Positions 3,426 to 34,907 of a DNA stretch of 64,000 nt are shown here, one piece after another. The position numbers and the translations under genes are program-made. The notes under the pieces were generated by a model. That model was not told where the DNA came from and ran no database searches. It worked only from the letters and a program-made list of their open reading frames with translations. The stretch's first letter is position 1. Each line of letters opens with the position of its first letter. Source of the DNA: Funiculus sociatus GB2-C1 (GTDB taxonomy: Bacteria > Cyanobacteriota > Cyanobacteriia > Cyanobacteriales > FACHB-T130); the NCBI RefSeq assembly GCF_039962115.1, contig NZ_JAMPKJ010000013.1:1-64000 (forward strand), written 5' to 3'.

Positions 3426-4700
3426 TCAACAACGTTCTATCAACGTTTCAATAGCATAGAGTAATTGCTTTTGGTGCCAGCCTTGGGTTAGTGTAGCTGC
3501 GATCGCGCATCCCCCTGCACCCATACCTTCTTTGACATATCCTTGCTCATAAGCCCTCAGTTGAGGGTAACGAGAAGCCGCAAAACTTAGCCCAGTAGCC
3601 ATTAGGGAAACTGGGTTGATAGTTTTTGCTAATCCAACAGTGTCGCCCGTAGAGTCTTCTGCCACCCAGCGGGTTGTTCCTACCACTACTTGTTCTGGTT
3701 GCCAGGACAGGTTACATTGACGTGATATTGCCTGCATCAAGGCATACACAGCCAGCATCTGCGTCCCACCAGCAAGCAAAACACCGCAGCTACGACTAGC
3801 AGCGATCGCCATCCCCGCCGCCACAACTTGCATCGGATCTCCAATTGCCGCCACCAGCTGCAAAGGGTCAATTGCTTCGCCGGGACTGGGGACTGGGGAA
3901 GAGAAGACAGCAACTTTTTTGTCTTCCCATTCCCCAATCCTCGCCGCTTGTAGCCCAGCTTGTACCACAGCCCACTTTTGGGAATGATTGCAACTGGGGT
4001 GGCTGCTGTTGACTTTACCAACAGCAGCGAAACCCAAGCCAGTTAAAACAGCCAAAGCCGTTGTGGTTCCCCCCACCACGCACTCGCCCAGAATTAAATA
4101 CCCATTGGGAATATTTGCCGCCAGCTTTTCTCCCCACCTCAGCCCCTGCTGGAGCAGATGTTTTACTATTGTTAGTTCCAGGGCATTTCCTTGAGTGAGA
4201 CACCGGGCTGGAAAGCCCCCTAAATCAATTGTTGGGACACTCGGTGGCTGGGGCAAACCTGCATTAAATAAATAAACTGGAATATTCAGACCCTCGATTG
4301 CAGCGCGAGAGATTAGCACTGGTGAAGCTCCCGCTTGCAGGGGAGGTAGAGGATATTGAGGCTGTTGGCGAGGGCCGTGATACAAAAATTCGGCATCTGC
4401 GATCGCAGTGTATCGCCGATCTTCTGGCGTTGCACCAGCCGCAGAAATGCCGGGGATCAAGGCGGTGTCAGTAAATCCTAAAATACAAGCAAACACCGCT
4501 GGCTGTCCTCGATATCGCTGGAGCCAGCGGTGTCCCTGTTCGTGTTGAGTGTAGACGTTAATGGGGATTGGGGATTGGGGATTGAGGATTGGGGATTGGG
4601 GATTGAGGATTGGGGATTGAGGATTGGGAAATCTCCCTTGTCTCTCTTCCCCAGTACCTTGTCCCCAGTCCCCAGTCCCTTGTCTTTCTTCTCCCATCAT
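3426..4700 (-). CDS. cobT: CobT-type nicotinate-nucleotide phosphoribosyltransferase with repeat-encoded N-terminus
   Basis: The core matches the cyanobacterial/archaeal CobT branch, which activates the lower-ligand base for cobalamin assembly from nicotinate mononucleotide. It has INVYTQHEQGHRWLQRYRG, GISAAGATPEDRRYTAIADA, GECVVGGTTTALAVLTGL and AAIGDPMQVVAAGMAIAA. Residues 1-46 are not family-like. They are the translation of a heptanucleotide repeat tract and read as NPQSPI-type repeats. A second repeat-like insert lies at 3882-3941, about residues 254-273 (IGEWEDKKVAVFSSPVPSPG). The ATG pair at 4697-4700 follows the upstream DUF2232 stop by a few bases and has GAGGAA/AGG nearby, so it is probably the authentic start with the repeat inserted just behind it. 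The frame is intact, and function is presumably retained. Confidence 0.85.
   Translation of the reverse strand: MMGEERQGTGDWGQGTGEERQGRFPNPQSPILNPQSPILNPQSPIPINVYTQHEQGHRWLQRYRGQPAVFACILGFTDTALIPGISAAGATPEDRRYTAIADAEFLYHGPRQQPQYPLPPLQAGASPVLISRAAIEGLNIPVYLFNAGLPQPPSVPTIDLGGFPARCLTQGNALELTIVKHLLQQGLRWGEKLAANIPNGYLILGECVVGGTTTALAVLTGLGFAAVGKVNSSHPSCNHSQKWAVVQAGLQAARIGEWEDKKVAVFSSPVPSPGEAIDPLQLVAAIGDPMQVVAAGMAIAASRSCGVLLAGGTQMLAVYALMQAISRQCNLSWQPEQVVVGTTRWVAEDSTGDTVGLAKTINPVSLMATGLSFAASRYPQLRAYEQGYVKEGMGAGGCAIAATLTQGWHQKQLLYAIETLIERC
3882..3941 (+). repeat. Heptad-repeat element inside cobT (internal copy)
   Basis: On the plus strand this reads GGGACTGGGGACTGGGGAAG, then an inverted GAAGAC/GTCTTC centre, then CCCATTCCCCAATCC. 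That is the G-rich, centre, C-rich order seen in the other elements, here antisense to cobT. It is translated in frame and adds a stretch unlike the CobT family. Confidence 0.65.
4561..4690 (-). repeat. Heptad-repeat element at the start of cobT
   Basis: Read along cobT it runs from G-rich heptads (GGGACTGGGGACTGGGGAC) through AAGAGAGACAAGGGAGATTT to C-rich heptads of the CCCCAAT and CCTCAAT type. It contains no stop in the cobT frame and encodes about 43 residues. It falls just behind the ATG pair, so the extension is added to the N-terminus. Confidence 0.8.
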
Positions 4701-4703
4701 CCT

Positions 4704-32537: not shown

Positions 32538-34907
32538 GTGCGAACAAGCGACGAAATCAAAGCAGAAATAGAAGGAAAATTCGGTTTTTTCCCCCCGTTT
32601 TTTGAACCTGCACTCGATACACCGCAGATTCTGGAAAATCTTTGGCAACAGACTCTATCGGCTTATGTCAATAATCCGCTGCCATCTTTATTCAAGGAAA
32701 AGCTTTTTGCTTACTTGTCGCGCTATTGCTCAGTTCCCTACTGCATCGTTTGCCATAGTTGTGCCTTGCGACCTTTAGGAATGACAGCCAAGGAATTGCT
32801 AAAACTACTGGAAACGCCACCACCTACGGGAAATCGGGAATCAGAAATCGAGAAGACAGAAGAATCTACCGCACTCCTCCAATCTGAGCAAAGCCTTTAC
32901 GACTATGCGATTTTAATTTTCCTGAAGCCTGAGAGTGCAGCAGCTTATCGGAAGCAGTTGCGTCAGTTGCTAGGATTAACTAATTACGCTCACTTGGTGG
33001 CGTTTCTGGGTTACATCAAAATGTGCCACCAGTGGGTAGAAAGTTATCCAGAGCTGTCATATAAAGCTGACCTACGCGCTGAGTCTCATCTAACCGCCTT
33101 GTTGGAAGAGGAACCTGACTTGGCGGATTTCTTTGCTGACTACAACGAAAAAATTCAGCAGGAAAAACACAGACGAGAAAATTTACTAGCAGCTCAAATT
33201 TTAGAGTTGCAACAGGTGCAGGAGGCACTTTTCGAGAGCGAACAGCGCTTTCGGGCTACCTTTGAGCAAGCTGCTGTTGGCATTTCCCATGTGGGGATAG
33301 ATGGTCGCTGGCTACGAGTTAACCAAAAGCTTTGCGAAATTGTGGGTTATACCCGCGAGGAACTGCTAAAGCTAACTTTTCAGGATATTACTCACCCGGA
33401 GGACTTGGAAGCAGACTTGGTATTAGCTAATCAATTGCTGGCTGGTGAAATAAAAACTTACTCAATGGAGAAGCGTTATCTTCGTAAAGATGGCTCAATC
33501 GTCTGGATTAATTTAACTGGGTCAATAGTAAGGGAACTGGGGGCTGGGGAACTGGGGACTGGGGACAAGGGACTGGGGACAAGGGACTGGGGACAAGGGA
33601 CTGGGGACAAGGGACTGGGTAAGAGTCCTTCCAATCACCAATCACCAATCCCCAATTCCCAATCCCCAATCCCCAATTCCCAATCCCCAATCCCCAATTC
33701 CCAATCCCCAATCCCCAATTCCCAATCCCCAATTCCCAATCCCCAATCCCCAATTCCCAATTTCCCAACACCAAAATATTTCATTGGTGTGATTGAAGAC
33801 ATCAGCGATCGCGTCCAAGCCGAGCAGGAGCTGCGAGAATCGAAAGGAGAACTCCAGGCAATTTATGATGGCATGGTGGATGGACTGCTAATTACCGAGC
33901 GAGAGACAACAAAGTTTCTTCGTGCCAATGCCGCAATCTGTAATATGTTGGGATATTCAGAAAGCGAATTATTATCAATGTCTGTAAAGGATATTCATCC
34001 ACCAGATCAGTTAGATTGTATCTGGGAAAAGTTTCAGGAAAAAGAAAAAGAAACGATTAGACATTGCAAAAATATTCCTTGCTTACGAAAAGACGGTAGT
34101 ATGTTTTTTGCAGATATTGGCTCTAAAGTCATTATTTATAATCAGATTCCCTGCAATATCGCATTTTTTAGAGATATTACTGACCGCAAAGCCGCTGAAG
34201 AACAGTTAACGCAACGAGCCGAAGAGTTAGCGATCGCTAATACCCACTTGGAACAGTTTGCTTATATTGCTTCTCACGATTTGCAGGAACCTTTGCGAAT
34301 GGTTGCCAGCTACACGCAGCTTTTGGCAAGACGCTATAAGGGCAAGCTGGATGATGATGCTGATGATTTCATTAGTTATGCGGTTGAAGGTGCTAACCGG
34401 ATGCAACAGCTGATTAAAGACTTGCTGGCGTTTTACCAGGTGGGGCATCGGGCCGAAACATTTGAGGCGGTGAACTGCGAGAAAGTTTTGCTGTTAGCGA
34501 TCGCAAATCTAACTGCTGCGATCGCCGAAAGTGGTGCAGTCGTGACTCACAATCCCCTGCCAGTGCTGCTAGGTAACGCTACTGGGCTGACGCAACTGTT
34601 GCAAAATTTAATTAGCAATGCTATCAAGTTCTCCCAGCAAAGCCCTCGGATTCATATCGAAGCTCGTTTGGGTGACAAGGAATGGGTGTTTTCTGTTAGG
34701 GATAATGGTATTGGCATCGATCCGCAGTACGCCGCGCGCATCTTTGTTATCTTTGGGCGCTTGCACACAAAATCTGACTATCCGGGAAATGGCATAGGAC
34801 TGGCAATTTGCCAGAAAATTGTCAACAGGCATCAAGGTAAAATTTGGGTAGAGTCTGAGTTAGGCAAAGGTTCTACTTTCTATTTCACTCTTCCTATAAT
34901 AAATTAG
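32538..34907 (+). CDS. Histidine kinase with AhpD-like N-terminus and two PAS domains
   Basis: The 789-residue protein starts at GTG 32538 behind AAAGGAGG. Residues 1-100 resemble the AhpD/carboxymuconolactone decarboxylase fold, with C69-x-x-C72-H73 in SRYCSVPYCIVCHSCALR. PAS1 (about 236-425) is split by a repeat-encoded insert at about 332-411 between its core and VIEDISDRVQAEQEL. PAS2 covers about 430-550. A HisKA dimerisation domain has the H-box AYIASHDLQEPLR near residue 575. The HATPase domain has LLQNLISNAIKFS, VRDNGIGID and GNGIGLAICQKI. It is soluble and presumably senses a redox or small-molecule signal. No response regulator is fused; the next gene encodes two receiver domains. 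Confidence 0.87.
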   Translation: MRTSDEIKAEIEGKFGFFPPFFEPALDTPQILENLWQQTLSAYVNNPLPSLFKEKLFAYLSRYCSVPYCIVCHSCALRPLGMTAKELLKLLETPPPTGNRESEIEKTEESTALLQSEQSLYDYAILIFLKPESAAAYRKQLRQLLGLTNYAHLVAFLGYIKMCHQWVESYPELSYKADLRAESHLTALLEEEPDLADFFADYNEKIQQEKHRRENLLAAQILELQQVQEALFESEQRFRATFEQAAVGISHVGIDGRWLRVNQKLCEIVGYTREELLKLTFQDITHPEDLEADLVLANQLLAGEIKTYSMEKRYLRKDGSIVWINLTGSIVRELGAGELGTGDKGLGTRDWGQGTGDKGLGKSPSNHQSPIPNSQSPIPNSQSPIPNSQSPIPNSQSPIPNPQSPIPNFPTPKYFIGVIEDISDRVQAEQELRESKGELQAIYDGMVDGLLITERETTKFLRANAAICNMLGYSESELLSMSVKDIHPPDQLDCIWEKFQEKEKETIRHCKNIPCLRKDGSMFFADIGSKVIIYNQIPCNIAFFRDITDRKAAEEQLTQRAEELAIANTHLEQFAYIASHDLQEPLRMVASYTQLLARRYKGKLDDDADDFISYAVEGANRMQQLIKDLLAFYQVGHRAETFEAVNCEKVLLLAIANLTAAIAESGAVVTHNPLPVLLGNATGLTQLLQNLISNAIKFSQQSPRIHIEARLGDKEWVFSVRDNGIGIDPQYAARIFVIFGRLHTKSDYPGNGIGLAICQKIVNRHQGKIWVESELGKGSTFYFTLPIIN
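33531..33769 (+). repeat. Large heptad-repeat element inside a PAS domain
   Basis: It runs about 240 bp. It has G-rich heptads (GGGGACT, GGGGACA, AAGGGACT types), a centre GGTAAGAGTCCTTCC, then a long run of CCCCAAT and CCCAATT heptads. It is translated without a stop as GDKGLGT-type then NSQSPIP-type repeats and adds about 80 residues to the kinase. Confidence 0.85.

Follow-up and report, generated by a model that had tools for sequence, protein, structure and literature searches.

A two-armed heptanucleotide repeat inside and between genes of the cyanobacterium Funiculus sociatus GB2-C1

The sequence analysed here is a stretch of 64,000 nt from Funiculus sociatus GB2-C1 (contig NZ_JAMPKJ010000013.1, positions 1 to 64,000; hereafter the window), which is part of contig C13 in a genome assembly of 6.47 Mb and 142 contigs. 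Five copies of a bipartite heptad element are present in it, two in a cobT-family gene and one each in bchH, a gene of the ChlH family, in a PAS histidine kinase gene and in an intergenic gap, and every copy is ordered as G-rich heptads, a short centre and C-rich heptads (Table 1). Short tandemly repeated repetitive (STRR) sequences are known from filamentous cyanobacteria, and here too tandem seven-base units are found at many dispersed loci, with units of the GGGGA(C/T)T kind read directly. As described below, the window copies belong to a much larger genomic set, members of which lie open, in frame and mostly in one orientation inside the genes that carry them.

An earlier note on this DNA, made from the letters of the window, had placed elements in these genes and in the gap; all were located, and arrays of this kind exceed chance, as a shuffled 293-kb contig gave no G-type and two C-type arrays at score 18, compared with 17 and 13, respectively, in the real contig C1. 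The three host open reading frames (ORFs) of the window (cobT, bchH and the histidine kinase) have no internal stops in translation, in agreement with the statement that the coding copies create none. The accompanying statement that the copies lie in frame inside genes applies to the internal cobT copy, bchH and the kinase, but the second cobT copy falls in a predicted N-terminal extension: the CobT of relatives begins at the native (M)I.VYTQ, i.e. without this extension, and the CobT record of Trichocoleus FACHB-6 begins inside it. Relative to the gene, the two cobT copies are opposite to each other in orientation. An assembly artefact appears to be an unlikely source of the window copies on sequence comparison, because corresponding segments of equal or other length occur in proteins of FACHB-472, Trichocoleus FACHB-90 and Trichocoleus FACHB-6, the nearest named relatives by protein being Cyanobacteria bacterium FACHB-472 and Trichocoleus sp. 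FACHB-90.

Table 1. Genes and bipartite heptad elements in the window (positions of the window; ACT>AAT and ATT>AGT denote the two orientations explained in the text).
Feature	Position	Strand	Remarks
cobT-family gene, host of two copies	3426..4700	-	NCBIfam TIGR00303, E 1.2e-115; Pfam match slightly below cut-off
Bipartite element within cobT	3882..3940	.	ACT>AAT on + strand, i.e. ATT>AGT in gene sense
Bipartite element, 5' end of cobT	4562..4679	.	ACT>AAT in gene sense; predicted N-terminal extension
Noncoding bipartite element	12174..12264	+	Start at the ORF 6883-12174 stop codon
bchH, magnesium chelatase subunit H (ChlH family)	24097..27873	+	TIGR02025 BchH; Pfam CobN-Mg_chel
Bipartite element in bchH, loop between DWYQ and VVGILLYRKHV	24767..24842	+	ACT>AAT in sense
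PAS histidine kinase gene	32538..34907	+	Pfam PAS, HisKA, HATPase_c
Bipartite element, PAS-domain turn (REPSGAPKYF in homologues)	33532..33768	+	ACT>AAT in sense
Shared core GGTAAGAGTCCTT in the kinase element	33618..33630	+	Surrounding 23-mer identical in cobN and two intergenic places

Architecture of the element across the genome

The census covered 2.418 Mb (37%) of the same genome, window included, and replaces a smaller one that had given 86 arrays in 1.23 Mb. Each position was scored against a cyclic heptad profile and an array was called from a seed score of at least 24. This gave 151 heptad arrays, comprising 79 plain G-then-C pairs, 2 C-then-G pairs, 3 GGC arrays, 61 single-arm arrays (38 C and 23 G) and 6 others, so that the genome search proposed in the earlier note does recover the G-rich/centre/C-rich architecture; weak partner segments (6204 in all) join some arrays by chance, which would be expected equally in either order. 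In the whole genome two heptad patterns gave 152 and 383 matches, the former number being that of GGGGACTGGGGA, whose reversed reading was matched nowhere.

The heptads fall into two dialects which, as written on the G strand, are an ACT type (GGGGACT, GGGGGCT and AGGGACT) and an ATT type (GGGGATT and GGGAATT). Among 82 pairs examined, 13 of them not classifiable, the arms were of opposite dialect (GGGGACT with CCCCAAT) in 63 of the 69 classifiable pairs, while label shuffling gave 36 opposite pairs on average and never more than 51. Pattern matches over the whole genome were likewise 56 for the asymmetric form (some of them overlapping) vs 5 and 3 for the two symmetric forms. The centre consists of a shared core, TAAGANTYYTT, mostly as TAAGACTTTTT or TAAGAGTCCTT, and the core pattern GGTAAGANTYYTT gave 59 matches vs 10 for its reversed reading. 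A 23-mer, ACTGGGTAAGAGTCCTTCCAATC, is identical at the window kinase, in cobN on contig C8 and at two intergenic places.

Of 386 genomes sampled from the phylum, 32 had the asymmetric pattern, its centre often being A-rich in a similar way, and 10 and 32 had the two symmetric patterns, many of these as single and possibly chance matches. The pattern scan of named genomes, which includes chance matches from many phyla and gives titles for 80 of at least 120 stretches, showed among the matches listed (80 titled) four asymmetric-pattern matches in metagenome-assembled genomes of Litorilinea aerophila (Chloroflexota; L132, L136, L159 and L193), two of them on both strands; this species may have its own G/C-rich repeat of similar shape.

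Reading frame, stop codons and strand in coding copies

Coding status was called from a dicodon score on 150-nt flanks, calibrated beforehand, with gene ends taken from a simple ORF caller and not from annotation. Fifty-nine arrays had coding sequence of the same strand on both sides, of which 55 were in frame and open, one was in frame with a stop and three were out of frame; by arithmetic, the frame would be kept by chance in about one third of insertions. The remaining arrays lay between opposite strands (3), had one coding flank (37) or had none (52).

It had been argued from the window that any seven-base array encodes one cyclic heptapeptide regardless of frame, which follows from arithmetic and is visible in the host translations, and that the units are free of stops. 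The latter is true of arrays made up purely of GGGGACT or of GGGGATT, and of the complements of these, but not of the common CTAG variant (AGGGACT/CCCTAGT), which puts a stop in every frame of a sufficiently long array. This variant was rarer in coding than in noncoding arrays (9 of 55 and 48 of 92, respectively; p = 2e-5), as was also found for bipartite copies only (6 of 21 and 32 of 40; Fisher p = 1.9e-4), for which the median lengths were 101 and 108.5. Out of six frames, 4.69 were open in coding and 2.92 in noncoding arrays, with values of 3.38 and 1.38 in the 80–400 bp class, where CTAG was present in 5 of 16 coding vs 32 of 39 noncoding arrays; the noncoding set includes the N-terminal cobT copy, which is probably translated. 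The expectation that coding copies would be stop-free more often than noncoding ones was thus upheld with length considered. The suggestion that such elements enter genes at low cost did not fare as well: stop variants are depleted in genes, one orientation is preferred, and 55 of the 151 arrays (36%) lie inside coding frames compared with 54.6% of random places of equal length.

The preferred orientation is ACT>AAT, that is GGGGACT with CCCCAAT, which reads ATT>AGT on the other strand. It was found on the sense strand in 19 of 21 coding bipartite copies (p = 2.2e-4), the internal cobT copy of the window being one of the two exceptions, and single-arm coding arrays follow the same strand rule (21 of 24; Fisher p = 7e-4). 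Bipartite copies beside stop codons were divided 15:14 (Fisher p = 0.005 vs coding copies), and further noncoding bipartite copies were located between two stop codons (3) or beside none (10). Since there is no orientation bias beside stop codons, the strand rule belongs to translated sequence, and a bias arising from transcription or insertion is disfavoured. Stop codons are also disfavoured as its cause, with open frames of 33 vs 35 by strand in 42 other bipartite copies. The ATT>AGT RNA strand is the more stable one in 53 of 63, but an mRNA hairpin is hard to regard as the required cause when single-arm coding arrays obey the rule too, unless these are decayed two-arm copies. Candidate causes are that the hairpin in the mRNA is weaker, that start-like GGGGATTG units are avoided or that the peptide itself is preferred.

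Orientation in other genomes was counted for ORFs of at least 150 codons running through the element, with 59 rows passing the array filter among the matches listed, and gave 20 ACT>AAT vs 9 ATT>AGT rows. For cyanobacteria, identified by title or handle, the numbers among the matches listed were 13 vs 4 rows, or 12 vs 1 independent loci, a count that leaves aside Litorilinea and other phyla, palindromes matched on both strands and loci without listed titles, and in which one of the 12 rule-following loci is from Trichocoleus FACHB-40, a near relative of the window genome.

Host proteins and recurrent loops

The coding copies are distributed over 51 distinct host ORFs. Pfam was run on 28 selected from among the ORFs that lie whole in one tile, along with the three window genes, and domains were found in 28 of 28. 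Named from these domains, the hosts include a LeuA-type synthase, a TilS-like PP-loop protein, MutS2, diaminopimelate epimerase, cysteinyl-tRNA synthetase, an RsmE-type methyltransferase, CobN, MutL, an AcrB-type pump, CBS proteins and many histidine kinases. Most arrays occupy variable loops, linkers or the borders of domains. Some lie between HATPase_c and receiver domains (C9 135600 and C11 32038), and in five kinases the array follows directly on a NAIDALE-like HATPase_c helix (C6 89871, C7 127198 and C12 85841, 91395 and 96588); the three C12 arrays, being on the same contig, may be of common origin, though one has another core. These positions bear out the loop and linker part of the earlier proposal that the elements generate such segments, but a selected function does not follow, as tolerance explains the data. 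One coding copy (C7:145271-145335; L067) has an 11-bp inverted repeat at its two sides, AGCTAGCATTA / TAATGCTAGCT; in the bipartite copies as a whole there was no excess of inverted-repeat flanks.

The kinase insert was present in 4 of 10 aligned homologues, all of them close relatives, while the six more distant homologues are without it and two of these show a plain turn, REPSGAPKYF or REASGVPKYF. In the G arm, protein P0006 exceeds P0005 by 7 residues, and in the C arm (12 heptads) the window protein exceeds P0005 by 28 residues; more generally, multiples of 21 bp separate the lengths of coding arms in several orthologue comparisons, though not in all. A search of 40 genomes for full-length kinase orthologues at E 1e-150 returned the window's own gene only, this cut-off being too strict. 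Both CobT inserts are present in the 99% identical CobT of Trichocoleus FACHB-6 (P0152) and were absent from 29 of 29 order-level relatives. For nirA, matched in 12 of 13 genomes of one Nostocaceae-like genus, the loop carries one G-arm unit in two genomes, four units in three, a longer mixed version in one and altered remnants in five; no heptad was seen by eye in G411.

A BchH protein of Trichocoleus FACHB-832 (P0134) is 89% identical over residues 100-330 and has no heptads. With inserts in the CobT of FACHB-6 and none in the BchH of FACHB-832, perhaps the same or a sister assembly, a mosaic or recombination is possible. BchH and CobN, which are distant paralogues, carry a copy in a seemingly corresponding loop, before VVGILLYR and KIGILFYR, respectively. 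Heptad-like P/Q/S-rich peptides were seen by eye in 25 of the 29 loops of the BchH search set, window's included, a set that leans to heptad-bearing loops because the query region included the insert. A less biased set consisted of 24 order-level relatives and left out the BchH of G018, which is cut by a contig end. In these relatives, the BchH loop contains CCCCAGT heptads (G038), GAGGAGC-type repeats (G035) or three NGQDARSTK-like repeats (G036), and in two cases a palindrome unrelated to heptads, perfect, 29 bp long and in frame in G003 (L089) and imperfect in G004 (L088). By sequence alignment the matching stretch is about 10 residues shorter in the solved ChlH structure 4zhj. Nostoc and other families also have heptads in this loop, some of them of the opposite dialect, and the loop was probably filled more than once because several Nostoc loops show the other dialect. 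Lineage specificity, which the earlier note had asked about, is seen for the kinase and, with one 99% identical protein, for CobT, but not for the BchH loop. In the LeuA-family protein of this genome and a related G097 protein, heptads are found at the same place, before IGIHTHND.

A wider and rather doubtful possibility is that variable loops of cyanobacterial proteins act as landing pads for in-frame repeats, with the bipartite heptad element as a general, strand-selected source of new linkers that grows in steps of seven residues. This would be based on the BchH loop, which according to species holds heptads in both orientations, a palindrome, GAGGAGC-type or other repeats, and on the CobN copy.

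Dispersal, rival explanations and related repeats

A good likelihood is attached to the explanation that these arrays represent one STRR-type repeat, likely spread by copying, whose arms probably slip and which would be kept in genes only where the frame is open and the site permissive. The shared core together with the opposite dialects suggests the dispersal of a unit, which would consist of G-rich heptads, the short core and C-rich heptads of the other dialect, and would have been copied preferably by template switching or recombination and not by classical transposition. Slippage would then change the length of the arms, freely outside genes and within the limits of frame-keeping changes inside them, while purifying selection would act as a sieve against units that carry a stop, against copies in the wrong orientation and against those at conserved positions of a protein, leaving those coding copies that have an open frame in a permissive loop, linker or terminus. 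Several observations weigh against this explanation. We found no genuinely empty site flanked by near-identical sequence, so that insertion as a unit is something we infer, and the 61 single-arm arrays are also what in-place growth could yield. The end phases span all seven positions but unevenly, with 73 of 231 ends in one of them, and 60% of noncoding ends are preceded by A, which makes a preferred end possible. Furthermore, the G arm of the window kinase exceeds that of P0005 by 19 residues, which is not a number of whole heptads, and the disfavoured orientation is found in the Nostoc BchH loops, with the other dialect in sense, and at one further locus common to four congeners among the matches listed.

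The quasi-palindromic form, high copy number, shared cores and favoured end phase would also be compatible with a classical non-autonomous transposon resembling a miniature inverted-repeat transposable element or a doublet of repetitive extragenic palindromic (REP) sequences forming a hairpin (REPIN), with the transposase supplied in trans and the heptad arms as the hairpin. However, no target-site duplication was detected, the shared flank words being 3.02 in real and 3.02 in shuffled data (n = 63 bipartite copies), and there appears to be no single fixed end; the lack of duplication and the varied ends argue against ordinary transposition, which we regard as improbable. The TCGCCG direct repeat that flanks the internal cobT copy was taken as chance since there is no excess of duplications across copies. 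A purely local origin, in which slippage extends G-rich seeds and the inverted arm arises by a template switch, site by site and with no dispersal, is given the lowest probability: it would account for the common single-arm arrays and for the arm lengths that differ among close relatives, yet local inversion would give like arms, contrary to the opposite dialects of most pairs, and identical non-heptad cores recur at distant loci.

Somewhat less improbable, though still unlikely, is that the element serves chiefly as a regulatory structure in RNA or DNA (a hairpin, quadruplex or 3'-end element) selected after stop codons, with the coding copies as by-products. Indeed 44 of 92 noncoding arrays, overlaps included, start no more than 10 nt after the stop codon of a gene compared with 9.7% of random intergenic places, while gene starts show little excess (13 of 92 vs 10.3%). 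Rehm et al. describe a similar stop-codon tendency in Nostoc and Xanthomonas and quadruplex formation in vitro (PMC4692102). Nevertheless, by their own account no role in gene regulation was identifiable (PMC4692102), the copies after stop codons have no preferred orientation, and more than a third of the arrays are coding.

The explanation by a dispersed STRR-type repeat can be set against known systems. Rehm et al. 2015 reported GGGGA(C/T)T heptameric repeats in Nostoc sp. PCC 7120, a share of them intragenic, which resemble the present arrays in their heptad units, genome-wide dispersal, intragenic share and preference for sites next to stop codons, but they counted single-strand arrays and noted few paired repeats (PMC4692102). 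Unlike these, the present genome has G-then-C pairs in large number (79 in the 37% sampled), and its element combines arms of opposite dialect with a shared core and obeys a sense-strand rule. Rickettsia palindromic elements (RPEs) are alike in being short palindromic repeats in frame in many unrelated metabolic genes, but they are elements of about 150 bp with a conserved peptide (PMC10969869), whereas here variable heptad arms give one peptide in any frame. By likeness of behaviour only (55 coding arrays, and Pfam domains in every host tested), the element would work like RPEs without being a member, and membership in their sequence family is unlikely given its variable arms. REPINs share two inverted hairpin-forming modules and high copy number (PMC3116915), while the present element has no fixed REP sequence or apparent single fixed end and has tandem-array arms and many coding copies. 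Heptads within genes are already known, as are palindromic elements lying in frame in Rickettsia genes; the composite architecture, the strand rule and the recurrent loops are added here. The small dispersed repeat (SDR) elements of Nostoc are reportedly very small cyanobacterial repeats often embedded in tandem heptamers (Elhai et al. 2008). No description of the opposite-dialect bipartite form or of its strand rule was found in the portions consulted of the literature searched, and an earlier account in Elhai et al. 2008 is possible.

With these observations, a known oddity of cyanobacterial DNA becomes a source of change in proteins that can be measured. Provided that the 37% sampled is typical, extra protein segments would be encoded by about 150 array copies (55 found) in this genome, and the clear rules of frame, stop-free units, strand and loop make the tolerance, and perhaps the use, of repeats in housekeeping proteins testable. 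As a caution, loops rich in GTGDWGLG or PNPQSPI in proteins of cyanobacteria can be derived from repeats and not be domains.

In addition to the bipartite copies, the window has other period-7 arrays at 1852-1879, 37717-37765, 49748-49772, 55449-55507 and 56035-56110, with the units TTTTTAA, TCATCAA, ATTGCTA, TTAAAAA and TAGTCAT / TGGCTAA / TAGCCAT, respectively, which suggests that several heptad families coexist in the genome. A 147-bp tandem repeat of about two copies, its length divisible by both 3 and 7, lies at 9508-9835 inside the ORF of 1763 aa at 6883-12174.

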